A stretch of DNA of 64,000 nt from Acidimicrobiia bacterium (GCA_024281095.1 JAMXLJ010000138.1:20888-84887); one strand, 5' to 3'; shown: positions 47,808 through 61,856, counted from the first letter of the stretch. Translations and numbers: made by a program. Notes: generated by a model from the letters alone, not told the origin.

Positions 47808-48032
47808 CGAGCGAGGTATCGGACGACGATTCGCCGTTCCGTTACCGCGCGCTCACCAGCTCGTTGCCTTTTGTGGCTACCGTCGACTTTCGACGAGTCC
47901 GATTCAAGAACGTGCCCGCGACAGACGATGCACAGGGGGACGGGGACTCGAGGTTCCCTCCCGAGCCGGAGGATGATGGCTTTGTCGGCGATGGGTGAAG
48001 CGGACCGGGACCCGAGGTCCGGAACGGACGCC

Positions 48033-48389
48033 ATGATCGACCTCACCGCGCCGGCCCTCCGTAGCGTCGCACCGCCGCACACGATCTACGACGAGGTGCG
48101 CCGGGTCATCGTCGACCGCGGGCTGACCCGTGGTCGCGAGCACACCCGGCGCGGGCAGGTCGGCCTTGCCGGCGCGATCGAGGTCGCCGTGGCGGAAGGT
48201 GCCGGCGTGCGGCAGACGCCGCGCCCGCGCCAGGGATCACGCATGGCCCGTGAGGCGCGCATCGCGCGGCACCTGCGGGAGCTCGCCGGTACGAGCAGCC
48301 TTGCGGCCTGGATCGACGCGCGAGGCCGCTCGTTGAACGACGTGTTCGATCTGCTGACGCAGGCTGCGGTGGCGTTTCCCGAGGACTGA
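48033..48389 (+). CDS. Small hypothetical protein (DUF6197-like, uncertain)
   Basis: RGLTRGREHTRRGQVGLAGAIEVAV...SLAAWIDARGRSLNDVFDLLTQA. Confidence 0.5.
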   Translation: MIDLTAPALRSVAPPHTIYDEVRRVIVDRGLTRGREHTRRGQVGLAGAIEVAVAEGAGVRQTPRPRQGSRMAREARIARHLRELAGTSSLAAWIDARGRSLNDVFDLLTQAAVAFPED

Positions 48390-48600: not shown

Positions 48601-48638
48601 ACTTTGCGTTGACGCAGAGTGAACTCGTCGTTTACGTT
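48601..48638 (+). promoter_or_regulatory. Candidate promoter TTGACG-18-TACGTT with inverted repeat ACTTTGCGT/ACGCAGAGT covering the -35
   Basis: 9-bp arms (one G:T) with 2-nt spacer at 48601-48620; TTGACG inside it; TACGTT downstream; about 50 bp before operon ATG. Confidence 0.45.
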
Positions 48639-48687
48639 TCTCGTCGCTGGGGCGAGATCAATTTCAACTGGGGCGGGGTGAAACCTC

Positions 48688-50730
48688 ATGGCAATGATGC
48701 CGGAGCGTTGGGCGGGCACGCGCAAGTCCGTGTCCATGGAGGCAGGCGCGGCAGCGGGGAGCGCGTGGGGTGGGCTCGATGCCCAACCCGAGTTTGCGCT
48801 CACCGTCATCGTGCCGACGCGCAACGAAGCTGCGAATGTCGAGGCGCTGCTCGAGCGCGTCGACGCCGCGCTTCTGGGCATGCCGGCGGAGGTCGTGTTC
48901 GTCGACGACAGTGACGACACGACGCCGGACGTGATCGACGCCGTGGTCCGGTCGCGCCGCTTTGCCGGCAACCTCGTCGTGTCGCTGCTGCACCGTCCGG
49001 TCGGCACACGCGACGGTGGCCTCGGTGGCGCGGTCGTCGCCGGTCTGCGGCTCGCGCGCTCGCCGTGGGTCGCGGTGATGGACGGCGACCTGCAGCACCC
49101 GCCGGAGCTGCTCGTCAAGATGTTGGAGGCGGGCGAGCGCGAACACGCGACGCTCGTCGTCGCGAGCCGCTACCGCGAGGGTGGCGACAGCGCGGGCCTC
49201 GCGGGCTCGACGCGCACGGTCGTGTCCATCGCCGCGTCCGCCGCGGCAAAGGCCACGTTCCCGCGTGCGCTGCGCTCCGTCACCGACCCGATGAGCGGGT
49301 TCTTCATGGTCCGTCGTGACGCCGTGGACCCGAACGCGCTTCGGCCCCGCGGCTTCAAGATCCTCATGGAGATCGCGGTGCGCACGCCCGAACTGCGCGT
49401 GGCGGAAGTGCCCTACACCTTCGGTGAGCGCTACGCCGGCGAGAGCAAGGCCAACAGCCGTGAGGGCGTCCGTTACCTGCGCCACCTGGGCCGGCTCCGC
49501 ATCGACCTCGCGCGTCAGCAGGCGCAGATGCGTGCCGAGTCGAAGGCGTCGACGCACCGGTACGACATCCACGGCATCATCACCGTCGAGGCCGACGCCC
49601 GGCTGCCCGAGCTCGAGGCGTTCCGTGTCCGCGCGCTGGACGGTCCCCCGACCATCCGCGTGCGTCTCGGCAAGCTGCCGGAGTCACCGAGCCGGTCGCG
49701 GCGCGACCCGTTCCGGCGCCAGATCCGTTACACCGAGACGCTCGGCAACCTCGGGTTCGCGGCCGACATCGCAATCGGCGAGCGCATCGAGGTGCTCGCG
49801 GCACCGTTGCTGCGCCACTCGCCGCACGTGTTGTACACGAACCTCGTCGAGCCGATCCTGCGGTGGAGCTTTGTCGCACGCGGGTACGCGCTCGCGCACG
49901 GCGCGTGCGTCGTCGAAGGTGACGACGCGTTCATGATCACGGCCCGCACCGACACGGGCAAGACGACCACGATGCTGAAGCTGCTCGACGCGAAGCCCTA
50001 CGACTTCGTCGCCGACGACCTCACGATCGTCTGCCCCGACGGGCGTGTCCTGCCGTACCCGAAGCCGCTGACCATCAGCAACCACACGCTGCACGCGGTC
50101 AACACGCCCTTGCTGAACTGGCGTGAGCGCACCACGCTGCCGCTGCAGAGCCGGGTGCACTCCCGTTCCGGGCGGAAGTTCGCCTTCCTGCTCACCCGTA
50201 CCGGCCTGCCGGTTGCGACGATCAACACGCTCATGCAGCTGGTGATCCCGCCGCCGAAGTACCCGGTGCAGCGGTTGGTGCCGGGCGTGCGCACCGCGAA
50301 GCCGGCGAAGCTGGCCGCGCTGTTCGTGATCCAGCGGTCGAACGACGGCTTCGAGTGGCTCGACGAGGACGACGCGCTCGAGATCCTGCTCGGCAACTGT
50401 GAGGACGCGTACGGGTTCCCGCCGTACCACTCGATCGAGGACTTCCTGCTCTCGTCGAACGGCGACAACCTGCGCGCGGTCGAGCGTCAGATCATCGCCG
50501 GTGCACTGGAAGGCCGGCGGGCGGCGTTGCTGTCGAGCACCACGCTCGACTGGGCGACGCGGATTCCGGGTCTCATCGAGCAGGTCCAGAACGACCTGCG
50601 CGTGGTTCCCGGCGACGCGACGTCATGGTCACGTGCCGCGGTGACCGAGCTGCCGGGGGGCAACGGCCACAACGGAAACGGCGACGGACACACGGTCACG
50701 TCCATCGTCCCCGTTGAGGCGCCGGAGTGA
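48688..50730 (+). CDS. Fusion: polyprenol-phosphate GT2 glycosyltransferase + HPr kinase/PEPCK-like P-loop domain
   Basis: TVIVPTRNEAANVEALLERV...MDGDLQHPPELL...SGFFMVRR; then GACVVEGDDAFMITARTDTGKTTTMLKLLDAKPYDFVADDLTIVCPDGRVLPYPKPLTIS. Confidence 0.85.
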   Translation: MAMMPERWAGTRKSVSMEAGAAAGSAWGGLDAQPEFALTVIVPTRNEAANVEALLERVDAALLGMPAEVVFVDDSDDTTPDVIDAVVRSRRFAGNLVVSLLHRPVGTRDGGLGGAVVAGLRLARSPWVAVMDGDLQHPPELLVKMLEAGEREHATLVVASRYREGGDSAGLAGSTRTVVSIAASAAAKATFPRALRSVTDPMSGFFMVRRDAVDPNALRPRGFKILMEIAVRTPELRVAEVPYTFGERYAGESKANSREGVRYLRHLGRLRIDLARQQAQMRAESKASTHRYDIHGIITVEADARLPELEAFRVRALDGPPTIRVRLGKLPESPSRSRRDPFRRQIRYTETLGNLGFAADIAIGERIEVLAAPLLRHSPHVLYTNLVEPILRWSFVARGYALAHGACVVEGDDAFMITARTDTGKTTTMLKLLDAKPYDFVADDLTIVCPDGRVLPYPKPLTISNHTLHAVNTPLLNWRERTTLPLQSRVHSRSGRKFAFLLTRTGLPVATINTLMQLVIPPPKYPVQRLVPGVRTAKPAKLAALFVIQRSNDGFEWLDEDDALEILLGNCEDAYGFPPYHSIEDFLLSSNGDNLRAVERQIIAGALEGRRAALLSSTTLDWATRIPGLIEQVQNDLRVVPGDATSWSRAAVTELPGGNGHNGNGDGHTVTSIVPVEAPE

Positions 50731-51494
50731 CGTCGGGTCACTCCGGCCGTCACAACCGCAACCAGACAACCCCATCGACCAGCCCCCCGGACGGTCTCGA
50801 CATGAGTGTGCGTGTAGAAGATTCGGCGCCCGGCGCCGTGCAGGCGCCGGCACCCCGGCTCGTGGCGCCGCTGATGCGGCGCTGGCCGGACCTCTGGCAG
50901 CGGGCGCTGCGCTTCGTGCGCTTCGGCCTCGTGGGCGTCACCGGGATCGCGGTGAACGAGGCTGCGCTCGCGGCCGCCGTCGCGGTGGGCGCACCCGAGT
51001 TGCTGGGCGTCGTGATCGCGACGCAGTGCTCCTCGATGTGGAACTTCGCGCTCGTCGAGCGGTGGGCGTTCCGCGGTACCTCCTACCAGCGCCGGCTGTG
51101 GCACCGCCTGGTGATGTTCTTCGCGGTCAACAACGCCGCATTGTTGCTGCGTGGCCCGATCATCGTGGGCCTGAAGCACGCCGGCGTCGGCGTGCTCGTC
51201 GGCAACCTGGTGTCGCTGGTCGTGCTGATCCTCCTCCGGTTCGCGCTGTCCGACTCGTGGATCTGGGGCAAGGCGGAGACGGAGTCCGCGCTCACGGGTG
51301 TTCCCGAGGACGAGATCGCGCTGCTCGACGGCAAGGACCCGCGCTCGCTGCACGCCACCACCATGGCCGGCATGACCACCAACGGGACGCCGTCGGTGGT
51401 CGAGCTGACGGGGGAGGTGAGGGCGCGCTACGCGGACGAAGAGGTCCGCGGAGGTAGCAGTCGCCCCAGGTTTCCGGCTGCGGGCACTACGTAG
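50727..51494 (+). CDS. GtrA-family membrane protein
   Basis: FVRFGLVGVTGIAVNEAAL...WNFALVERWAFRG; GTGA overlap with preceding gene. Confidence 0.9.
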   Translation: MTSGHSGRHNRNQTTPSTSPPDGLDMSVRVEDSAPGAVQAPAPRLVAPLMRRWPDLWQRALRFVRFGLVGVTGIAVNEAALAAAVAVGAPELLGVVIATQCSSMWNFALVERWAFRGTSYQRRLWHRLVMFFAVNNAALLLRGPIIVGLKHAGVGVLVGNLVSLVVLILLRFALSDSWIWGKAETESALTGVPEDEIALLDGKDPRSLHATTMAGMTTNGTPSVVELTGEVRARYADEEVRGGSSRPRFPAAGTT

Positions 51495-51618
51495 CCGCAC
51501 CGGCCCCGCACTCGTTCCCGAAGCGACGGCCGCCGGCACGCTGGTCGCCGCGCGCGACGTCGACGTCGAGGAGACGCCAGCGGCGCCGGCCGCGACGGAG
51601 CCCGAGGATCGGCCGCTC

Positions 51619-53112
51619 GTGCCGGCGTGGCTGTGGCTCGCCGGCATCCTCGTCGTCGCGGTGTTCGTTCGGGTCTGGGGCCTGAACCGGGTCGGATTCA
51701 ACAGCGACGAGACGGTCTACGCCGGGCAGGCCGCGTCGATCGCGGGCAACGTCACCCTGCAGAAGTTCTTCCCGATCTACCGCGCGCACCCGCTGCTGTT
51801 CCAGACGACGCTGTCAGTCCTCTACCAGTTCACGACGAGCGACTACGCGGCCCGTCTCCTCAGCGTGGTCTTCGGTGTCGGCACGGTCGTGGTCACGTAC
51901 CTGACCGGCCGGTTGCTGTACGGACGCCGGGCCGGGCTCATCGCGGCCGCGCTGCTCGCCGTGATGCCATACCACGTCGTCGTCACGCGGCAGGTCCTCC
52001 TCGACGGGCCGCTCGTGTTCTTCTCGACGCTGACGCTGTACCTCGCGGCGCGTTACGCGGTGACGCAGCGACCGGTGTGGCTCTACGCGACCGGTGCCGG
52101 CATGGGGCTGACGTTCCTCGCGAAGGAGACCGGCATCGTCCTCGTCGCCGCGGTCTACGCGTTCCTCGCGCTCGCACCGCGCGTGAAGGTGCGCATCCGC
52201 GACCTCATCGTGTCGGGCGGGATCATGGCCTGCATCATGCTGCCGTACCCGCTTTCGGTGGCGTTCGGGAACTCGTCGAAGACCGGGAAGTCGTTCTTCG
52301 CGTGGCAGCTGCTGCGCCGGCCGAACCACGGCGCGTTGTTCTACTTCACGAACGTGCCGGCCGCCCTCGGCTACATCGTGTTCGCGGCTGCGCTCGCCGG
52401 GTTGTGGGTGCTTCGCAAGGAGCGCAGCTGGCGCGAGGTGTTGTTGCTCTCGTGGATCCTCGTCCCCGTCGGGTTCTTCCAGCTGTGGCCGGTGAAGGGA
52501 TTCCAATACCTGCTTCCCATCGCGGCGCCGTTCGCGATCCTTGCCGCGCGGTCGCTGGCCCGCATGCCCGTTCGCAGGCATCGCTCGTCCGGTGAGTTCA
52601 CCGGGTTGTCGCCGATCGTGAGCGGTGTCGCTCTCGCGGCTATCGGTTTGAGCCTCCTGCTGCCGACGATCCAGCGCATCAGCCCGTCGTCGTCGGGCAC
52701 GTTCCTCGCCGGTTCGGGTGGAGTCGCCGGAGGGCGCGAGGCCGGCGAGTGGGTCGGCAGAAACGTGCCGCGGAACGCGCAGCTGCTCGCCCTCGGGCCG
52801 TCGATGGCCAACATCATCGAGTTCTACGGCGACCGGAAGACGTACGGGCTGTCGGTCAGCACCAACCCGCTGCATCGCAACCCGGTGTACGAGCCCATCG
52901 CGAACCCCGACCTCCAGATCCGTCGCGGCTCACTGCAGTACCTCGTGTGGGACTCGTATTCCGCCAACCGTTCGCCGTTGTTCGCGGCCAAGCTGCTGCG
53001 CTTCGCGGAGAAGTACCACGGCCGGGTGGTGCACACGGAGTCGGTCAAGGTCTCGAGCGGCGGCGTTCAGGGGCAGCGTCGCGTCGTCGTGATCTACGAG
53101 GTGCGGCCATGA
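51619..53112 (+). CDS. GT39/PMT-like integral membrane glycosyltransferase
   Basis: NRVGFNSDETVYAGQAASIAG; multi-TM; LAKETGIVLVAAVYAF. Confidence 0.9.
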   Translation: MPAWLWLAGILVVAVFVRVWGLNRVGFNSDETVYAGQAASIAGNVTLQKFFPIYRAHPLLFQTTLSVLYQFTTSDYAARLLSVVFGVGTVVVTYLTGRLLYGRRAGLIAAALLAVMPYHVVVTRQVLLDGPLVFFSTLTLYLAARYAVTQRPVWLYATGAGMGLTFLAKETGIVLVAAVYAFLALAPRVKVRIRDLIVSGGIMACIMLPYPLSVAFGNSSKTGKSFFAWQLLRRPNHGALFYFTNVPAALGYIVFAAALAGLWVLRKERSWREVLLLSWILVPVGFFQLWPVKGFQYLLPIAAPFAILAARSLARMPVRRHRSSGEFTGLSPIVSGVALAAIGLSLLLPTIQRISPSSSGTFLAGSGGVAGGREAGEWVGRNVPRNAQLLALGPSMANIIEFYGDRKTYGLSVSTNPLHRNPVYEPIANPDLQIRRGSLQYLVWDSYSANRSPLFAAKLLRFAEKYHGRVVHTESVKVSSGGVQGQRRVVVIYEVRP

Positions 53113-54503
53113 GCGCGCGCATGCGACGGGTACGACGTGCGCGGCGCGTCGGCGGCACGGTCGTGGTCGCCGGCCTCGCCCTGTGGCTCGGTGGCATCGT
53201 GCCCGCGTCGGCGGCACACACCGGCACGAGCAAGCCGCTTGCGACCGCGCCGCCGGCGGCGCCGACCACCACACCGTTGCGTCACTTCATCAGCGTGATG
53301 CAGGAGAACCACACCTTCGACAACTACTTCGCCGGCTACCACGGTGCCGACGGCACTCCGGCGAAGGCATGCGTCCCGATCGATCCCACGGGCCAGACGT
53401 CGAAGGACTGCGTCAGCCCGTTCCATATCGGCAAGCGACCGATCCAGAACCTCGCGAGCGGTGTCACGGAGTTCAACACGGCGTTCGCGAAGGGTGCCAT
53501 GAACGGGTTCGCCGCTGCGCAAACCTCGCGGGGCGTTCCGGTCGACCTCCCGATGGGCTACTACGACGACCGCGACATCCCGTACTACTGGAACCTTGCC
53601 GACGAGTACGTGCTGTTCGACCGCTTCTTCACGTCGATCGGCGGCGGAAGCGTGTGGAACCACATGTTCTGGGTGACGGGCACCCCGGGCGACACCAGCC
53701 GCGAGACGGTCCCGCCGAACGGGTACCCCGACACGACGCGCACCGTCTTCGACGAGCTCCAGGCGAAGGGTGTGTCGTGGAAGTTCTACGTGCAGAACTA
53801 CGACCCGAACATCACGTACAAGGGCGGGCGTGACGCGAAGCGGGGCGCGCAGGTGCCACGGGTGCCGCTGCTGGCCATCCCGCGGTTCGTCAACAACGAC
53901 GCGCTCATGGCTCACGTGGCCCCGCTCGACGACTATTTCAGCGACCTGCAGAACGGAACGTTGCCGGCGGTGTCGTACATCGTCCCCTCGGGCAGCAGTG
54001 AGCACCCACCGGGCAGTATCCAGAGCGGCCAGAACTTCGTGCGCAACATCGTCAATTCGTTGCAGCAGAGCAGTTCGTGGTCGTCGAGTGCGCTGCTGCT
54101 CACCTACGACAGCTGGGGGGGCTGGTACGACCACGTGCCGCCGCCCGCGGGCTACGGACTGCGCACGCCGGCCCTTCTGGTGAGCGCCTTGGCCAAGAAG
54201 GGCGTGGTCGACCACACGCAGCTCGACTTCACGTCGATCCTGCGGTTCATCCAGCAGAACTGGAGCCTCCCGCCCCTGCCCGGCCAACGCCAAGTCCAGG
54301 ACTTCAGTGGCGCGTTTGCGTTCTCCGCACCCGCACGGCAAGCGTCGTTCGTGTCATCGGAACGGCATCCCGCGGTGGCGCCGGCGCCGACGCGAGGGAT
54401 CATCTACGTCGCCTACGGCGGCGCGATCGCGCTGTCGCTCGGGCTCATTGCGGGCGCAGTTGTTCTCACGATGCGGCGCAACCGAACGATGGAACCCGCG
54501 TGA
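53109..54503 (+). CDS. Secreted phosphoesterase (phospholipase C / acid phosphatase family) with C-terminal TM
   Basis: FISVMQENHTFDNYFAGY; YDSWGGWYDHVPPP; C-terminal TM IALSLGLIAGAVVLTMRRNR. Confidence 0.92.
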   Translation: MSARMRRVRRARRVGGTVVVAGLALWLGGIVPASAAHTGTSKPLATAPPAAPTTTPLRHFISVMQENHTFDNYFAGYHGADGTPAKACVPIDPTGQTSKDCVSPFHIGKRPIQNLASGVTEFNTAFAKGAMNGFAAAQTSRGVPVDLPMGYYDDRDIPYYWNLADEYVLFDRFFTSIGGGSVWNHMFWVTGTPGDTSRETVPPNGYPDTTRTVFDELQAKGVSWKFYVQNYDPNITYKGGRDAKRGAQVPRVPLLAIPRFVNNDALMAHVAPLDDYFSDLQNGTLPAVSYIVPSGSSEHPPGSIQSGQNFVRNIVNSLQQSSSWSSSALLLTYDSWGGWYDHVPPPAGYGLRTPALLVSALAKKGVVDHTQLDFTSILRFIQQNWSLPPLPGQRQVQDFSGAFAFSAPARQASFVSSERHPAVAPAPTRGIIYVAYGGAIALSLGLIAGAVVLTMRRNRTMEPA

Positions 54504-55672
54504 TGAGCCCCCGACGCGTCCTGACGGTGCTCGCGCCGATCGGCGTGGTCGTGGGCATGCTCCTGGGCGCCGCGGCGCCGGCGATGGCAGCGAACACGCC
54601 GCCGCCCCAACGACCGCACCCCAAGGGCACGCCGGCGCCGAAGCGCGCGCATCCCAAGCTGAACCAGGCGCTGCCCCAGGGCTTCAACCAGCTGAGCATC
54701 CAGACCACGCCTCCGGTGGCCGGCGCGAAGTTCACCTTTGCCGGAGCGACGATCACCACGGACAACGCCGGGATCGGGACGATGCTCATCACACCGGCCC
54801 AACGCCTGATCCTGCGCGACAACCGCCAGGACGAGCTGGTGGTCGCGACACCCACCGTGGACGTGAAGCAGGGCGTGCGCGCCCAATTCACCGGATGGTT
54901 CGGCGCCGGGGTCTACCGTGCCGGCGTGGAGTCGCAGGTGGCGACGTTCGAATTCGACTACCTCACGAGCTTCAACTTCACCAATTTGAAGGGCCGCGTC
55001 GTCCCGCCGTCCCTCATGAGCTCGCTGCAACTCCAGAGCAGCATCGGCGAGACGATCGATCTCGACACCGCGGATCCGGTCTGGCTGCAGGGGAGTCAGG
55101 TCGTCACCGGCAGCAACGGTCTCGAGAGCAAGGACATCTTCTACAAGGTCAACAGCGTCGTGGTCGCAGGCTCGAACGTGGTGAACCGCGCGCAACAGCG
55201 CTTCGTGCCGAGCCAGCAACAGCTCGCGACGGTGAAGCTCCTCTTCTACTCGGCGCGCTTCGTCGCGACGGACGCGATGTTCGGCGGTGGCATCGGCACG
55301 GGCATCGACCTGCAATATCCCGACGGGACGACGCGCCACATCCCGTTCGCACGGGGCCACGCGGTCACGGTCGACGACCTGCCCCGTGGCGACTACCACG
55401 TGACGGTCGTCGGTGGCGGTCTGAAGATGGCGCGGCCGGTGTCGATCTCGCGCGACCAGGAGGCCGACCTCGACGTCATCAGCTACGTCGACGTCGCCGT
55501 GGTCGGCGTCGCACTCCTCCTCCTGGCGCTCGTGATCTTGTGGTTCGGCCTGCAACTGCGCCGTCGACACCGCGGGTACAACCGGCGTCTGGCGCGCCAG
55601 GCCCGTCGTGATCGCAAGGCGGCGAAGCAGGCCCCGATCGCGGGTGTCGCGGCGGCGGTCGATCAGCCGTGA
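54503..55672 (+). CDS. Unrecognised exported protein with signal peptide, beta-rich ectodomain and C-terminal TM
   Basis: Signal peptide VLAPIGVVVGMLLGAAAPAMA; TM VDVAVVGVALLLLALVILWFGLQL; basic C-tail. Confidence 0.8.
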   Translation: MSPRRVLTVLAPIGVVVGMLLGAAAPAMAANTPPPQRPHPKGTPAPKRAHPKLNQALPQGFNQLSIQTTPPVAGAKFTFAGATITTDNAGIGTMLITPAQRLILRDNRQDELVVATPTVDVKQGVRAQFTGWFGAGVYRAGVESQVATFEFDYLTSFNFTNLKGRVVPPSLMSSLQLQSSIGETIDLDTADPVWLQGSQVVTGSNGLESKDIFYKVNSVVVAGSNVVNRAQQRFVPSQQQLATVKLLFYSARFVATDAMFGGGIGTGIDLQYPDGTTRHIPFARGHAVTVDDLPRGDYHVTVVGGGLKMARPVSISRDQEADLDVISYVDVAVVGVALLLLALVILWFGLQLRRRHRGYNRRLARQARRDRKAAKQAPIAGVAAAVDQP

Positions 55673-57123
55673 ACACCAGCGCGTGGCGCCGCCTGATCGC
55701 GCCGGCCCTCGTGGGAATCGCTTTCCTCACCGGTGTCTCCGCGACGAGCGGTGCCGCGGCGGCGCCGCGCGTCGCGGCGTCGTCGGGAAGCGGCGGCCCG
55801 TCCGCCACCAGCGCGCAGCCGGGCCACGTGCCGGTGCTCGCGTACTACTACATCTGGTTCGACGCCCGGTCGTGGGAGACGAAGAAGTCGGATCTTCCCG
55901 AGTTGGGCAAGTACTCGAGCGACGACGTCGCGGTGATGCGTCAGCACGTGCAGTGGGCGAAGAGCGCCGGCATCGACGGCTTCATCGTGAGTTGGAAGCA
56001 CACTCCGACGCTCGACGCGCGGTTGGCGAAGCTCGTCGACATCGCCGAGCAGGAGAACTTCAAGCTTTCGATCATCTACCAGGGTCTCGACGTCAACCGG
56101 GACCCGCTTCCCGGCGGCGCCGCGACCGTGGCACGCGACCTCGACTGGTTCAGCTGGAACTACTCGCAGCGGGCGCCGTTCAACATGTTCCCGAAGCCGC
56201 TCGTCATCTGGTCGGGCACCTGGGGGTTCTCGGCTGCGGACATCGCGGGAGTCACCGCGACGCGCCGCGACCATCTGCTGATCCTCGCCTCCGAGCGCAA
56301 CGTCGACGGGTACAACCGGTTGGCTCGCGTGGTCGACGGCGACGCCTACTACTGGTCATCGGTGAACCCGGCGACATACGACGGCTACGCGCAGAAGCTC
56401 GTCGAGATGCGTCAAGCCGTCGACGCGAGCGGCGGCCTGTGGTTCGCCCCGGCCGCACCGGGATTCGACGCGCGGCGCAATCAGGGAACCTCGGTGGTTC
56501 CGCGCAACGACGGCAAGACGTTCGAGCAGGAGATCGCGGCCGCGCTCGACTCGAGGCCCGACGCGCTCGGGCTCATCAGCTGGAACGAGTTCACCGAGAA
56601 CAGCCACATCGAGCCGAGCCGGAACTACGGGTTCCGATACCTCGACGTGGTCGCGCAGCGTCTCGGCGACGGCGTGCCGGTTCCCGAGTTGCTGCCCGGC
56701 GCGGCGCATGGCGGCTCGAGCTCGGCCGGCAACCAGGCCGACGGGGCCGACTCGAGCTCGTCGTCGAGTCACGGGTTCCCGACCGGCCTCGTCGTGTTCC
56801 CGGCGTTCCTGATCTTCTTCGTGGTCGTGTTGTTCGTGGCGGGCCGTCGTGCCCGACGGCCGGACCGGCCCGACGGCTGGGGCGGTGGCCTGTGGCGTCC
56901 GGGGGGCCCGCGGCGACCGGCGGCACCGGGGAGCCGTCGAGCCCGGCGCGAGGCGCGACAGGCCCAGACGTTTGCGCGGCTGCGCCGGCTCGGGAAGGCG
57001 GCACCCTCACGCGTACCGTCGCCGTCGCCGTCGCCGTTCACGTCCGGCACCACAGCGCAAGATGGGGCGCTGCCTGTGCTGTCCGGCCTGCCCGCGGGGC
57101 AACGCCGTGACGGCTTCGACTGA
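55669..57123 (+). CDS. GH99-like (endo-mannanase-like) exported glycoside hydrolase with C-terminal TM
   Basis: PVLAYYYIWFDARSW...AKSAGIDGFIVSWK...LGLISWNEFTENSHIEPSRNYG. Confidence 0.8.
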   Translation: MNTSAWRRLIAPALVGIAFLTGVSATSGAAAAPRVAASSGSGGPSATSAQPGHVPVLAYYYIWFDARSWETKKSDLPELGKYSSDDVAVMRQHVQWAKSAGIDGFIVSWKHTPTLDARLAKLVDIAEQENFKLSIIYQGLDVNRDPLPGGAATVARDLDWFSWNYSQRAPFNMFPKPLVIWSGTWGFSAADIAGVTATRRDHLLILASERNVDGYNRLARVVDGDAYYWSSVNPATYDGYAQKLVEMRQAVDASGGLWFAPAAPGFDARRNQGTSVVPRNDGKTFEQEIAAALDSRPDALGLISWNEFTENSHIEPSRNYGFRYLDVVAQRLGDGVPVPELLPGAAHGGSSSAGNQADGADSSSSSSHGFPTGLVVFPAFLIFFVVVLFVAGRRARRPDRPDGWGGGLWRPGGPRRPAAPGSRRARREARQAQTFARLRRLGKAAPSRVPSPSPSPFTSGTTAQDGALPVLSGLPAGQRRDGFD

Positions 57124-59158
57124 CCGCGCCGATCCTCCGCCGGGTCGCCCGGGCGACGCCCTCTCGCGCCGCACCTTCATCGGCTCGGGCCTTGCGGCGC
57201 TCGGCGCGCTCGCCGTCGGTGGCTGTGCGGGCGGGCCCGGTGAGGGGCCGGCGGCGCCGGTGCTCGACCCGGGGCCCGGCCGAATCACCGTGGACGGCGC
57301 GACGCGTCTCCGGCTCTCGTGGCGCGCAGTTCGGGGCGCCCGCTCGTACGACGTCGAGCTCAACGGCTCCGTGGTCGCGGCCGGCGTCACCGAGCCCGCG
57401 GTCGAGCTCGCGTACGGCGACGGCGCGACCGGCTTGGTCGAGGGGCACAACCGCTGGCGTGTGCGTGCCCGCGACTCGGCGAGTGGCGCGTGGAGCCGGC
57501 CGGGCACGTTCGACGTCGTCGCGCGCGGCGCCGTGTTGGCCCGCCGGTTCGACCGTGAGGACGACGGGCCCATCGAGCTCACGACCCGTAGGGCGAGCGG
57601 CACCACACTGTCGGTCGCTGCGGCCGCGGCGCTCGGCGCGGGCAAGGGCCTCCTCATGCGGGGTGCCGACCCCGCCGACGCGGTCGCGTCGAAGAACCTC
57701 TTCACGCAGCCGCTGAGCGAGTGCTGGCTCCGTCTGGCGGTGCGACCGAGCCGTTGGCAGCGCGCCGGCGCGCGTGTCCACCTCGCGCGGATCCACTCCC
57801 AAACGGGGAGCGCGGCCCGTGAGGCGCTGCAGTGGATCACGGGCGAGGGCATCGCAGCGGAAAGCGTGGCCCGGGCCGTCGCACCGGTGCGCGCCGGCGC
57901 CTGGACACAGGTGCAGCTGGGCGTGTTGGCCGACGGCAGCGTGGAGCTGTGGACCTACGACGGGCGGCGTGAGCACCTCGTCGGCCGGGGCCGGAACCCC
58001 GGTCTGGCCGGTGCGGTCAAGGACACGCTCGCGATCGGCAACGACCTCACGCGCACGGGATCGACGTTCGAGGTGCATCTCGACGGCTTCGCGGTCGGCG
58101 AGCACCGGCTGCCCTGGGCGAACACCGCGCCGCCGATCACGCCGGCGCGACCGGTTCGTCTCGATCCCGCGTCGTTGCCGGCCCGGTTCAGCTTCTGCTT
58201 CGGATCCTGCAACAACGCAAAGTCGGCGCCGTACCACGACACCGCGGTCGGCGTCGCCGCCCGTCTCCAGCCCGATTTCTTCGTCCATCTCGGCGACTAC
58301 GGATATCCCGACAGCAATGCGTACCGGCCGTCGGTCGCGGGCTACCAGGCGCTGTGGAGCGATCTGTTCTTCGAGGAGCAGCTCGAGCTCCTCTCGCGCA
58401 AACCGTGGCTGTACATCGCGTCCGACCACGACATGGGCCGCAACGACTGTGACATCACGAGCTGCAGCCCGGTCGCGAGTCGTGCGTTCGCGCAATGGCA
58501 GAACAATGACCCGAGCGCCGACGGACAGGGCCGTTACGGGAGCGTGCTGCTGGACAGAGGTCGCGTGCTGCTCGTGTGGACCGAAGGCATCGCATACCGC
58601 AGTCTCCTCACCGCGCCCGACGGGCCGGGCAAGACGGTGCTCGGAGCGAAGCAGAAGACGTGGCTGTTGGGGCTGCTCGCATCGACCACGGCGCGGCTCG
58701 TGATCATCGCGTCACAGACATCGGTCGGTTTCGTCACCGGGAGCGACTGGGCCCAGTACCCGACGGAGCGGGCCGAGCTGATCCACGCCTGCCAGTCGTC
58801 GCCGGCCGCGGCGGTGCGGTTCATCAGCGGCGACTACCACCACGCAGGCTGGTCGCGCTTCGGTCCGAAGGTCGCCGAGTGGCTGGCGGCTCCGATGGCC
58901 GAGTTTCCCGAGGGCGCGAACCCGCCCGGGCCGCTGGTCGACCAGTCTGCACTGGCCGCAATCGGCGCCGGCTTCTCGAGCCGGCCGGAGGCGTTGCGCG
59001 GCGAGAGCTGGTCGGCGTTCAACGCGTCTTCGTCGGTTGGCCGCGTGACGATCGACGGCGACGCGCGCACAGCCACATTCGAGCTGCTCGACGCGCGCGG
59101 TCAGCTTCGTAACGACGGTGCCGCGTTCACGTTCCGCGAGATCGTGCGCTACGCGTAG
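57107..59158 (+). CDS. PhoD-like phosphatase, Tat/lipoprotein signal, N-terminal FnIII/ConA-like modules
   Basis: SRRTFIGSG Tat motif and VGGC lipobox; FCFGSCNN, HLGDYGYPD, YIASDHDMGRNDCD, SGDYHHAGW. Confidence 0.88.
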   Translation: MTASTDRADPPPGRPGDALSRRTFIGSGLAALGALAVGGCAGGPGEGPAAPVLDPGPGRITVDGATRLRLSWRAVRGARSYDVELNGSVVAAGVTEPAVELAYGDGATGLVEGHNRWRVRARDSASGAWSRPGTFDVVARGAVLARRFDREDDGPIELTTRRASGTTLSVAAAAALGAGKGLLMRGADPADAVASKNLFTQPLSECWLRLAVRPSRWQRAGARVHLARIHSQTGSAAREALQWITGEGIAAESVARAVAPVRAGAWTQVQLGVLADGSVELWTYDGRREHLVGRGRNPGLAGAVKDTLAIGNDLTRTGSTFEVHLDGFAVGEHRLPWANTAPPITPARPVRLDPASLPARFSFCFGSCNNAKSAPYHDTAVGVAARLQPDFFVHLGDYGYPDSNAYRPSVAGYQALWSDLFFEEQLELLSRKPWLYIASDHDMGRNDCDITSCSPVASRAFAQWQNNDPSADGQGRYGSVLLDRGRVLLVWTEGIAYRSLLTAPDGPGKTVLGAKQKTWLLGLLASTTARLVIIASQTSVGFVTGSDWAQYPTERAELIHACQSSPAAAVRFISGDYHHAGWSRFGPKVAEWLAAPMAEFPEGANPPGPLVDQSALAAIGAGFSSRPEALRGESWSAFNASSSVGRVTIDGDARTATFELLDARGQLRNDGAAFTFREIVRYA

Positions 59159-59164
59159 CCCTGT

Positions 59165-61699
59165 TCACGGGCCGACACGCGACGTGCCGAACGCGGCGTC
59201 GTCGAACACGACGTCGTACGTGCGTCCGCTCTGTACTTCGCCGATCTGCATCTTGCCCACCGGAGTAGTGCCGAGGTTCGTCGTCGACGACAACGCATCG
59301 ACGCGTGCACCGTCGGCCCAGACCTCCACGGCGCTCGACGTGCCGTTGATCAAAGTGTGGAGCTCGACCTCGTGCCACGAGCCGAGCGACAGCACCAGCG
59401 CGCTCGTGGTGGTCGTGCCGGCGACGTCGTTGCGCACGCCGAGCTGACCCGATGCGGTGACGAACACGTACGCCAGCGAGCCGTCGGCGGCGGTTCGGTG
59501 TCGCAGGAGGTTGACCTGACTTGACGCGGTCTTCAGGTCGAAGAACACGCGGGAATAGGAGTCGGTGTAGGTCGACGGCAGCACCTTCTTCGCATAGGTG
59601 GCGCCAACCGTGGTGTTGCCCTCGGCTGCGAACGCGCCGTTGTGCACGGTCGTGCTCTGCACCGTCAGTCCGCCGGTGATGGACCAGGCCGACAGGCTGC
59701 CCGACTCGAAGCCGTCGCTGAAGAGCGGTGGTGCCGAGCCGGCGGGTGTGTTCACCGTCAGCGCCGTGCTCGGCGGCGATGGGTTCCCGGCGCCGTCGCG
59801 GGCGACCACCTGGTACTGGTACGTGGTGGACGGCGCCACGGTGCCGTCGAAGTAGCTCGTGGTGTTGCCCTGGGTGCTGGCGATCACGGTGCCGTCGCGC
59901 AGCACGTCGTACCCGCCGATCCCGCTCGGATCCGATGCCGCGCCCCAGGACAGCGTGACGCTCGACGAGGTGGCGTTCGCGAGCAGACCGCTGGGCGGTG
60001 CCGGAGCCGTCGTGTCGATGGTCCACTTCGCCGCGGCCGGCGACGGGTCGGTCTGCCCGTTGGCCTTGGCGGTGACGGTAACGGTGTGCGAGCCCACCGC
60101 GAGCCCGCTCAGGTTCAGCGGGCTGCTGCATGCGCTCGCAGCCGCGCCGTCGACGCTGCACGTGAACGTCGCCGGGGTGATCGACGAGTGGAATGCAACC
60201 GACGCGGTCGTCGCGTTGGTTGGGCTCGCGGGCGCGCTGTCGATGATCGTGTCGGGCGCGACACCGAACGTGTAGCTCTGTACGTCGAAGGTCCGCCCGA
60301 GCGAGTCGGTCGGCGTGACCGTCACGGTGTTGCCGCTGACAGTCACCTTGATGAAGTGGGACACGCGCGCCGCGCTGTCGGGGAGGGGCGCGGCGCCGCA
60401 TTTCGACCCGATGTTCTTCGACGGCGACCAGCCGATGCCGTACTTGTCGACCGCGCTGCAGCCGACCTCGGCGATCGGTTGGAGTGTGGCGCCGCCGCCA
60501 CCGGTGATGTAGTTCGGGAACGTTCCGGGCGTGCCGGGCACGTTGCGCTGGTAGAGGTGCGCGTGGCCGCTGAACGCCAGGTTGACGCCGTTCGACGCGA
60601 GCAGGCCTTCGACGCTGTTCGGGCCCTGCAGGAACGTGTCGGAACTCTGGGCCTTCTGGTCCGAGTACATCGGATAGTGGAAGAAGGCGAATTTCAGCCC
60701 GCCGGGGTGGGCCGCGAGGTCCGACTTGAGCCACTGGTATTGCGCAGTGCCCGGGGCCCAGTGTGCGGCGTAGTCGTCGGAGTACACGGTGCCGGTGCCC
60801 ACGTTGCCGTCAGCCCAGTCTGCTTGCAGCACGTAGAAGCGCGCGTTACCGGCGTCGAATGCGTACCAGCTGCTCGGGTAGCTCGCGGACGCCGTGCCGT
60901 TCACGCAGCAGTACGTCTCCTTGACGTAGCGGCCACCCGAAGTCGCCGCCGCGGTGTCGGACGGCCAGATCATCTGCTCGGTGCTCCGCGTGCCGGTGGC
61001 GTTCGTGAAGCCGTGGTTGCCGCTGGCCGCGAACATCGGGATGGTGTCGCCGGGCACTGTCCAGAACGACCGTCCGAACACCGCGCTGATGTTGGCTCCG
61101 GTCTGTTGCAGGTCGCCGTAGTTCGTCTGGCTGCCCGACTGGTACGCATTGTCACCCACGCTGATCGCGAAGCGGGCCCCGCTCGTCGAGATCAGGCTCA
61201 TGATGTTCGCGAGGTTCGGGTTGCCCGTGGCGTCGACCTGACCCCAGTCGCCGAGCACCGCGAACGAGAACGTCTCCGGTGAGCCCGCGGGAACCTGCGT
61301 CTTGAACACCGGCGACGCATCGGCGCCGAGCAGGTCCGTCGTGCCGAGATACACGCGGTAGCAGTAGGAGCCGGCCGCGGGCAGCGACAGTTGCGCGACC
61401 CACTGGTACTCGCTGACGCCGTTCACGGTGATCGGGTACCTCGTGGCCGTGACGGACGTGTTCGCGGTGCAGGTGCCGCCGGTGCCCACGGTGCCCCACT
61501 TCACCGAGCCTGTCGTGGCCGACTGGTCGGTGGCCCAGTTCACCTTGATCTGCGTGCCCACCGCGTCGGTGAGATAGGGATAGCGGCGCAGCTGTGTCGC
61601 GTTCGCGGCGCCGGTTGGCGCGACGGCGACGGCCACCAGACCCGCGGTGAGAAGGAACGTGCAGACGACTGCACGCAGCGTGCGATGACCCGACCCCAT
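59165..61699 (-). CDS. Secreted purple-acid-phosphatase-like metallophosphoesterase with FnIII and ConA/LamG-like C-terminal modules
   Basis: Signal peptide; VLGDWGQVD, SVGDNAYQSG, ASGNHGF, FSGHAHLYQRN; later FnIII PPSGLLANATSSSVTLSWGAASD. Confidence 0.92.
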   Translation of the reverse strand: MGSGHRTLRAVVCTFLLTAGLVAVAVAPTGAANATQLRRYPYLTDAVGTQIKVNWATDQSATTGSVKWGTVGTGGTCTANTSVTATRYPITVNGVSEYQWVAQLSLPAAGSYCYRVYLGTTDLLGADASPVFKTQVPAGSPETFSFAVLGDWGQVDATGNPNLANIMSLISTSGARFAISVGDNAYQSGSQTNYGDLQQTGANISAVFGRSFWTVPGDTIPMFAASGNHGFTNATGTRSTEQMIWPSDTAAATSGGRYVKETYCCVNGTASASYPSSWYAFDAGNARFYVLQADWADGNVGTGTVYSDDYAAHWAPGTAQYQWLKSDLAAHPGGLKFAFFHYPMYSDQKAQSSDTFLQGPNSVEGLLASNGVNLAFSGHAHLYQRNVPGTPGTFPNYITGGGGATLQPIAEVGCSAVDKYGIGWSPSKNIGSKCGAAPLPDSAARVSHFIKVTVSGNTVTVTPTDSLGRTFDVQSYTFGVAPDTIIDSAPASPTNATTASVAFHSSITPATFTCSVDGAAASACSSPLNLSGLAVGSHTVTVTAKANGQTDPSPAAAKWTIDTTAPAPPSGLLANATSSSVTLSWGAASDPSGIGGYDVLRDGTVIASTQGNTTSYFDGTVAPSTTYQYQVVARDGAGNPSPPSTALTVNTPAGSAPPLFSDGFESGSLSAWSITGGLTVQSTTVHNGAFAAEGNTTVGATYAKKVLPSTYTDSYSRVFFDLKTASSQVNLLRHRTAADGSLAYVFVTASGQLGVRNDVAGTTTTSALVLSLGSWHEVELHTLINGTSSAVEVWADGARVDALSSTTNLGTTPVGKMQIGEVQSGRTYDVVFDDAAFGTSRVGP

Positions 61700-61856
61700 G
61701 ATGCAAAGCTCCCCAGAAGGGGCCGGCGCGCACCTGCCGCGCACCAGCACCCCGCCCTTGACCCCAGACACGGAAGTCTACGGGGACCCGGCGCGCGATG
61801 TCGGTCAACCCGGGCGAAACGACGCACGTGGCCGCCCGGCTCGTAGCCTCACTTCC

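Follow-up and report, generated by a model that had tools for sequence, protein, structure and literature searches.

A candidate extracytoplasmic mannosylation cassette with a PEPCK/HprK-fold kinase-like module in an Acidimicrobiia bacterium and distant relatives

Introduction

Most work on bacterial pathways based on polyprenyl-phosphate-mannose concerns mycobacteria and related bacteria. In three-component transmembrane glycosylation systems (GtrB/GtrA/Gtr and those of lipoteichoic and wall teichoic acids), a GT2 glycosyltransferase loads polyprenyl phosphate with a sugar, GtrA moves the sugar, and a GT-C enzyme transfers it outside (PMC11127046, PMC8035078). We analyzed a stretch of 64,000 nucleotides from an Acidimicrobiia bacterium (GCA_024281095.1, JAMXLJ010000138.1:20888-84887; hereafter the window), in which a polyprenyl-phosphate-sugar synthase, a GtrA protein and a GT-C transferase are encoded together in a seven-gene operon that is part of a larger cassette. 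The cassette is predicted to work by the same GT2/GtrA/GT-C logic as the described systems, but its synthase is of the DPMS type and is joined to a module of the PEPCK/HprK fold, usually also to GtrA, and the cassette includes a fixed trio of membrane-anchored exoproteins and often a metallophosphatase.

The explanation that we favor, with a probability of about 0.7, is an extracytoplasmic mannosylation cassette built on polyprenyl-phosphate-mannose and provided with surface-anchored accessory proteins. From the protein families, active-site residues, gene fusion, gene order and co-occurrence we infer a sugar, an acceptor, a kinase substrate and roles for the exoproteins as follows. In the cytosol, the DPMS-type GT2 would load mannose from GDP-mannose onto polyprenyl phosphate, and the GtrA domain would anchor the synthase and present or flip the polyprenyl-phosphate-mannose. 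A PMT-like GT39 enzyme would then move mannose to the acceptor at the outer face, where the three anchored exoproteins (phosphoesterase-fold, Ig-like and GH99-like) and a secreted metallophosphatase may bind, trim or finish it. The PEPCK/HprK-fold module would be no passive scaffold, using ATP to phosphorylate a specific substrate close to the mannose-loading step.

The original prediction, made from the sequence alone, proposed an undescribed surface-glycoconjugate system. The unit is indeed coherent, and neither the cassette nor its kinase family was found described in the open-access literature searched. The Actinoplanes gsf cluster was considered and rejected; it has GtrA, and no HPr, phosphoesterase, GH99 or mannosyltransferase terms were found for it. 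The cassette links a DPMS-type synthase to a kinase-like enzyme and keeps a constant set of exoproteins beside them, in bacteria with little-studied envelopes, and if the explanation is true a new kinase family acts in lipid-linked glycosylation. Cultured hosts suitable for testing are Flexivirga endophytica, Leekyejoonella antrihumi, Thermalbibacter longus and a Thermomicrobium isolate.

The synthase and its fusions

In a PDB search the GT2 domain matched PfDPMS (5mlz) with 142 bits, and the next match had 31 bits. Sixteen donor-site residues of PfDPMS were mapped from the published structure (PMC5526996), and 15 of them are kept in the window protein; the sole difference is an Arg in place of Tyr10, a main-chain contact. 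Among 68 cassette sequences D39, G68, L69, D89, D91, Q93, H94, R117, R131, K178, R202 and K208 are invariant, E12, S135 and F177 nearly so, and each donor-site residue other than Tyr10 is kept in 65 to 68 sequences. This retention is strong support for GDP-mannose as the donor, and the window synthase is predicted, as a DPMS-type enzyme, to be active with GDP-mannose and polyprenyl phosphate. PfDPMS and most cassettes share the succession of a GT2 and a transmembrane domain; PfDPMS, however, has no kinase module, and the window has its transmembrane domain in a separate gene.

Outside the window's clade, most loci encode GT2, GtrA and kinase in a single open frame, including those of the isolates Thermalbibacter longus, Flexivirga endophytica, Leekyejoonella antrihumi, Thermomicrobium sp. 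and Kouleothrix aurantiaca. The window's clade and several Acidimicrobiales have a separate GtrA gene, and there GT2 is continuous with the kinase. The split state maps to one change on the module tree (13 rows, support 84/90, 87% of bootstrap trees), and the split of GtrA in the window is, as far as this tree indicates, one derived event. A GtrA-kinase fusion without GT2 is found at three loci (L080, L104 and L121). The first of these (L080:9512-11074), from a metagenome-assembled genome (MAG) of Spartobacteria, has no GT2 or other cassette gene nearby.

At a Nocardioidaceae MAG locus (L110:8240-8650) a type II mannose-6-phosphate isomerase domain (PF01050, E 1.8e-31) stands in frame upstream of the GT2-GtrA-kinase open reading frame, possibly making a four-module fusion. 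Another PF01050 domain is near the cassette at L115. These two domains fit mannose as the sugar, in a few loci only. A mannose-6-phosphate isomerase cupin that had seemed a common neighbor of the cassette was a clustering artefact, the cluster being the fused synthase itself, and a direct search found the cupin at L110, L115 and L116 only.

The GT39 transferase and the acceptor

Both Pfam matches of the GT39 protein (Table 1) are above cut-off, and its DE motif is invariant in 65 of 65 sequences. The original prediction had read a DPM-type GT2, GtrA and a PMT/GT39 enzyme as lipid-linked sugar synthesis, flipping and transfer, and this logic is supported by the GT39 motif, by a donor site kept except for Tyr10 and by the isomerase domains of a few loci.

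Instead of a protein, the acceptor could be a lipid, such as one resembling phosphoinositol mannosides, or a cell-wall or secondary polymer, and we regard this as a plausible though less favored alternative. Bacterial GT-C enzymes that use polyprenyl-phosphate-sugars often modify glycans (PMC8035078, PMC11127046), the PF04185 family of the neighboring phosphoesterase includes phospholipases C, and the PMT_4TMC domain of canonical actinobacterial PMT is found neither in the GT39 protein nor in the assembly. The closest solved relatives of GT39 are nevertheless protein mannosyltransferases, at weak similarity (yeast PMT1, E 1.6e-4), and an Ig-like surface protein is a constant partner of the enzyme. 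The idea that Thermomicrobia have phosphoinositol-mannoside lipids was not backed by the open-access literature that we searched.

The kinase-like module

The AlphaFold2 model of the kinase module has a mean predicted local distance difference test score (pLDDT) of 92.9 and a predicted TM-score of 0.91. By Foldseek the best solved match of the model is PEPCK (E 6e-5), followed by HprK (E 2e-3), and the PEPCK TM-scores are modest (0.32-0.45). The module has the fold, P-loop (TDTGKT) and kinase-2 Asp-Asp pair that define the PEPCK/HprK superfamily, and both motifs are invariant across 64 module sequences. It does not, however, belong to the HprK/P sequence family, for which the only match was to TIGR04352, at 16.4 bits where the cut-off is 200, and a sequence search of the PDB gave chance matches only. 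Since the best solved matches, to PEPCK and then to HprK/P, have such modest TM-scores, the module is a distinct family within the superfamily, without close relatives. Unlike HprK/P and PEPCK, it also has its own N-terminal region and is joined to a membrane glycosyltransferase.

A second group of invariant residues, absent from those relatives, lies around SPHVLYTN, PKPxTxSxHT, QSxxHS, PPPK and NxxDAxxFPP in the same 64 sequences and suggests a defined substrate. This bears on the alternative that the module is only a regulator, an ATP sensor or protein kinase that switches the synthase, with the remainder being ordinary three-component glycosylation. In its favor are the regulatory kinase/phosphatase function of HprK itself and the location of the module on the synthase polypeptide; against it, the second residue set points beyond the ATP site, and L080 retains the module together with GtrA alone, no GT2 having been found in the vicinity. 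We therefore hold a purely regulatory module to be rather unlikely. That the ATP-binding domain gates precursor supply, as originally predicted, is possible.

A more elaborate role for the module would be a carrier cycle on one complex. The cassette phosphatases would dephosphorylate the outer-face polyprenyl phosphate, the polyprenol would recross the membrane, and the kinase module, as a new family, would rephosphorylate it beside the mannose-loading site and GtrA. We consider this speculative and improbable.

The window's genome (G000) also encodes a second, distant P-loop protein resembling the kinase module (contig C168, 21049-21387).

The exported proteins

Hydropathy places a signal-like hydrophobic helix at the N-terminus, and a transmembrane helix at the C-terminus, of the phosphoesterase, the fifth protein and the GH99-like protein. 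The first of them is a clear match to the family of phospholipase C and AcpA, from which it differs in its C-terminal transmembrane anchor and its metal site. The PF04185 metal ligands, described for AcpA, are required in SapM (PMC6635428) and NPC4 (PMC9837106). In the window protein E66, N67 and D334 are present, as is S181 at the position of the Ser/Thr nucleophile, and S335 stands where D/E is expected, leaving it one metal ligand short, and the four ligands are complete in 19 of 52 cassettes. Because the ligands are incomplete in most copies, many of these proteins may be non-catalytic. The family is expanded in the window's genome, with 13 PF04185 match stretches on contigs C2 (which has several), C69, C81, C93, C108 and C116.

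The AlphaFold2 model of the fifth protein (pLDDT 88.3) is a chain of beta-sandwich domains followed by a C-terminal helix, for which Foldseek gave partial matches to pilins and CnaB-type proteins. It resembles tandem Ig-like surface proteins more than it does an enzyme. Three paralogues of this exoprotein in another genome, G027 (L126:9348-10508, L127:1-1336 and L128:8848-9081), lie outside cassettes among unrelated genes.

The profile of the GH99-like family matches bacterial endo-alpha-mannosidases in the PDB significantly (E 2.4e-19). Both catalytic Glu residues, corresponding to E404/E407 of MANEA (PMC11025385), are kept in 31 of 31 sequences and are E307 and E310 in the window; the cassette proteins differ from GH99 endo-alpha-mannosidases and mannanases in their membrane anchor and low identity.

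The PhoD-like protein carries a twin-arginine signal and scores above the Pfam gathering threshold of 27 but below the NCBIfam equivalog cut-off. The metallophosphoesterase downstream has full-length orthologues of up to 1293 bits, and its own conserved motifs are intact.

The original prediction gave four exported enzymes the task of processing or recycling a phosphorylated surface polymer, which is not supported in this form. The fifth protein appears to be Ig-like, PhoD is not a core member, and the degenerate phosphoesterase site in most copies, that of the window included, weakens the case for a phosphorylated polymer.

The exported proteins could also suggest an operon that scavenges phosphate or glycans by degrading external phosphomannans, the glycosyltransferases being incidental. 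Up to three exported phosphatase-fold proteins accompany the hydrolase, and metallophosphoesterases recur beside the cassette. This is very unlikely, however, as the biosynthetic genes are the least variable part of the cassette, most copies of the phosphoesterase have a broken site, the exoproteins are membrane-anchored, and the core neighbors seen in the loci include no transporter; an ABC ATPase is near the cassette in eight loci, but its strand and its distance vary.

Conservation of the cassette

A scan with the kinase-module alignment, one genome per GTDB species, gave at least 80 loci, an undercount because an exact peptide pattern was needed and the scan ended at 80. They span Actinomycetota, Chloroflexota, Thermomicrobiota, Trueperaceae and Dormibacterota, and include single MAG contigs assigned to Acidobacteria and Spartobacteria, possibly through misbinning. 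Profiles built from the window genes were applied to the 37 loci with enough flank, and found GtrA in 37, GT2 in 36, GT39 in 34, the PF04185 protein and the Ig-like exoprotein in 31 each, GH99 in 29, the metallophosphoesterase in 23, DUF6197 in two and PhoD in one. The order is strict: DPMS, GtrA and kinase are followed by GT39, the PF04185 protein, the Ig-like exoprotein and the GH99-like hydrolase. Neighbor order and strand are kept in 50/50 GT39-PF04185, 43/43 PF04185-exoprotein and 39/39 exoprotein-GH99 pairs, and kinase and GT39 are on the same strand in 65/67; these counts include related loci and are not independent events.

Six of the 58 genomes of the window's order have the full synthase-kinase fusion. 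Cassette genes surround it in those six where contigs allow, with varying positions of GtrA and PhoD. Full-length copies of the kinase module occur in exactly these six genomes, as do strong matches to the exoprotein profile, which elsewhere gave two weak partial matches only. The DUF6197 gene is kept only in cassettes of these order-mates, and PhoD in order-mates and some Acidimicrobiales cassettes. The cassette is rare and patchy, as the full-length module is present in 3 of 398 Actinomycetota genomes (the window's own included), and the module had no match in 72,556 plasmids.

Co-conservation of the genes, on which the original prediction depended, is thus strong, with strict order in dozens of distant genomes, and the association is far above chance. 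Phylogenetic inertia or chance is a highly improbable source of the synteny, several genes being missing in a few loci (L080, L104 and L108) but the order of so rare a cassette being kept across several phyla and its kinase and exoprotein being all-or-none within one order.

Evidence against mannosylation

Besides the degenerate phosphoesterase site, several observations weigh against the cassette being a mannosylation system. The sugar is not proved by the donor site, since PfDPMS is somewhat active with GDP-Glc and UDP-Glc as well, at a lower level (PMC5526996). An alpha-mannoside substrate of the hydrolase is likewise not proved, because the H[I/L]EPY motif of the reference family (PMC11025385) is missing from the GH99-like proteins, which have a YxGLD-type stretch there in the profile alignment. 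One or more exoproteins are missing from some cassettes. In the window's genome no type I phosphomannose isomerase was found, only a type II cupin of 155 residues.

Layout and surroundings of the cassette

All seven consecutive genes of the original prediction are present as open reading frames on the plus strand (Table 1), and its domain assignments were borne out at the Pfam level, the fifth protein having no Pfam family above cut-off. This protein had been called a transmembrane-anchored exoprotein, in agreement with its signal-like N-terminus and C-terminal helix. Five of the six junctions overlap exactly as predicted (50727/50730, 53109/53112, 54503 by 1 nucleotide, 55669/55672 and 57107/57123); the exception is GtrA to GT39, with a gap of 124 nucleotides to the first ATG/GTG/TTG start. 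The limits of the unit need revision. The predicted interval began at 48601, upstream of the first gene, and ended at 59158, short of the co-occurring metallophosphoesterase that extends the unit, and it counted PhoD as a member, which is a clade-specific addition and not core.

Table 1. Genes of the cassette and its immediate flanks in the window
Feature	Coordinates	Strand	Support
DUF6197 protein, clade-specific accessory upstream of synthase	47871..48389	+	PF19698 42.2 bits
DPMS-type GT2 (residues about 37-285) with PEPCK/HprK-fold kinase-like module (residues about 290-640)	48688..50730	+	Pfam GT2 80.8 bits; PfDPMS 5mlz E 2.4e-40; model, Foldseek
GtrA/DPMS transmembrane domain protein, separate gene here	50727..51494	+	PF04138 54.2 bits
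PMT-like GT39 (GT-C fold) glycosyltransferase	51619..53112	+	PF13231 (PMT_2) 75.2 bits, PF02366 57.1 bits; DE motif
PF04185 phosphoesterase-fold exoprotein, C-terminal transmembrane anchor, incomplete canonical metal site	53109..54503	+	229.7 bits; phospholipase C/AcpA PDB matches
Exoprotein resembling tandem Ig-like/beta-sandwich proteins, signal peptide and C-terminal transmembrane helix	54503..55672	+	AlphaFold2, Foldseek, hydropathy; no Pfam family
GH99-like hydrolase, C-terminal transmembrane anchor	55669..57123	+	PF16317 52.6 bits; endo-alpha-mannosidase PDB matches
PhoD-like phosphatase, twin-arginine signal, clade-specific addition	57107..59158	+	PF09423 50.0 bits
Purple-acid-phosphatase-like metallophosphoesterase, cassette member	59165..61771	-	PF00149 32.5 bits

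In about nine loci each (L061, L074, L115, L116 and others), LuxR-type response regulators and HisKA_3 histidine kinases are found within a few kilobases of the kinase gene, usually upstream of it, and it is possible that they regulate the cassette. Further exoproteins recur near the cassette at L054:19429-20877 and about 21 other loci; many have metallophosphoesterase domains and some have CBM96 domains.

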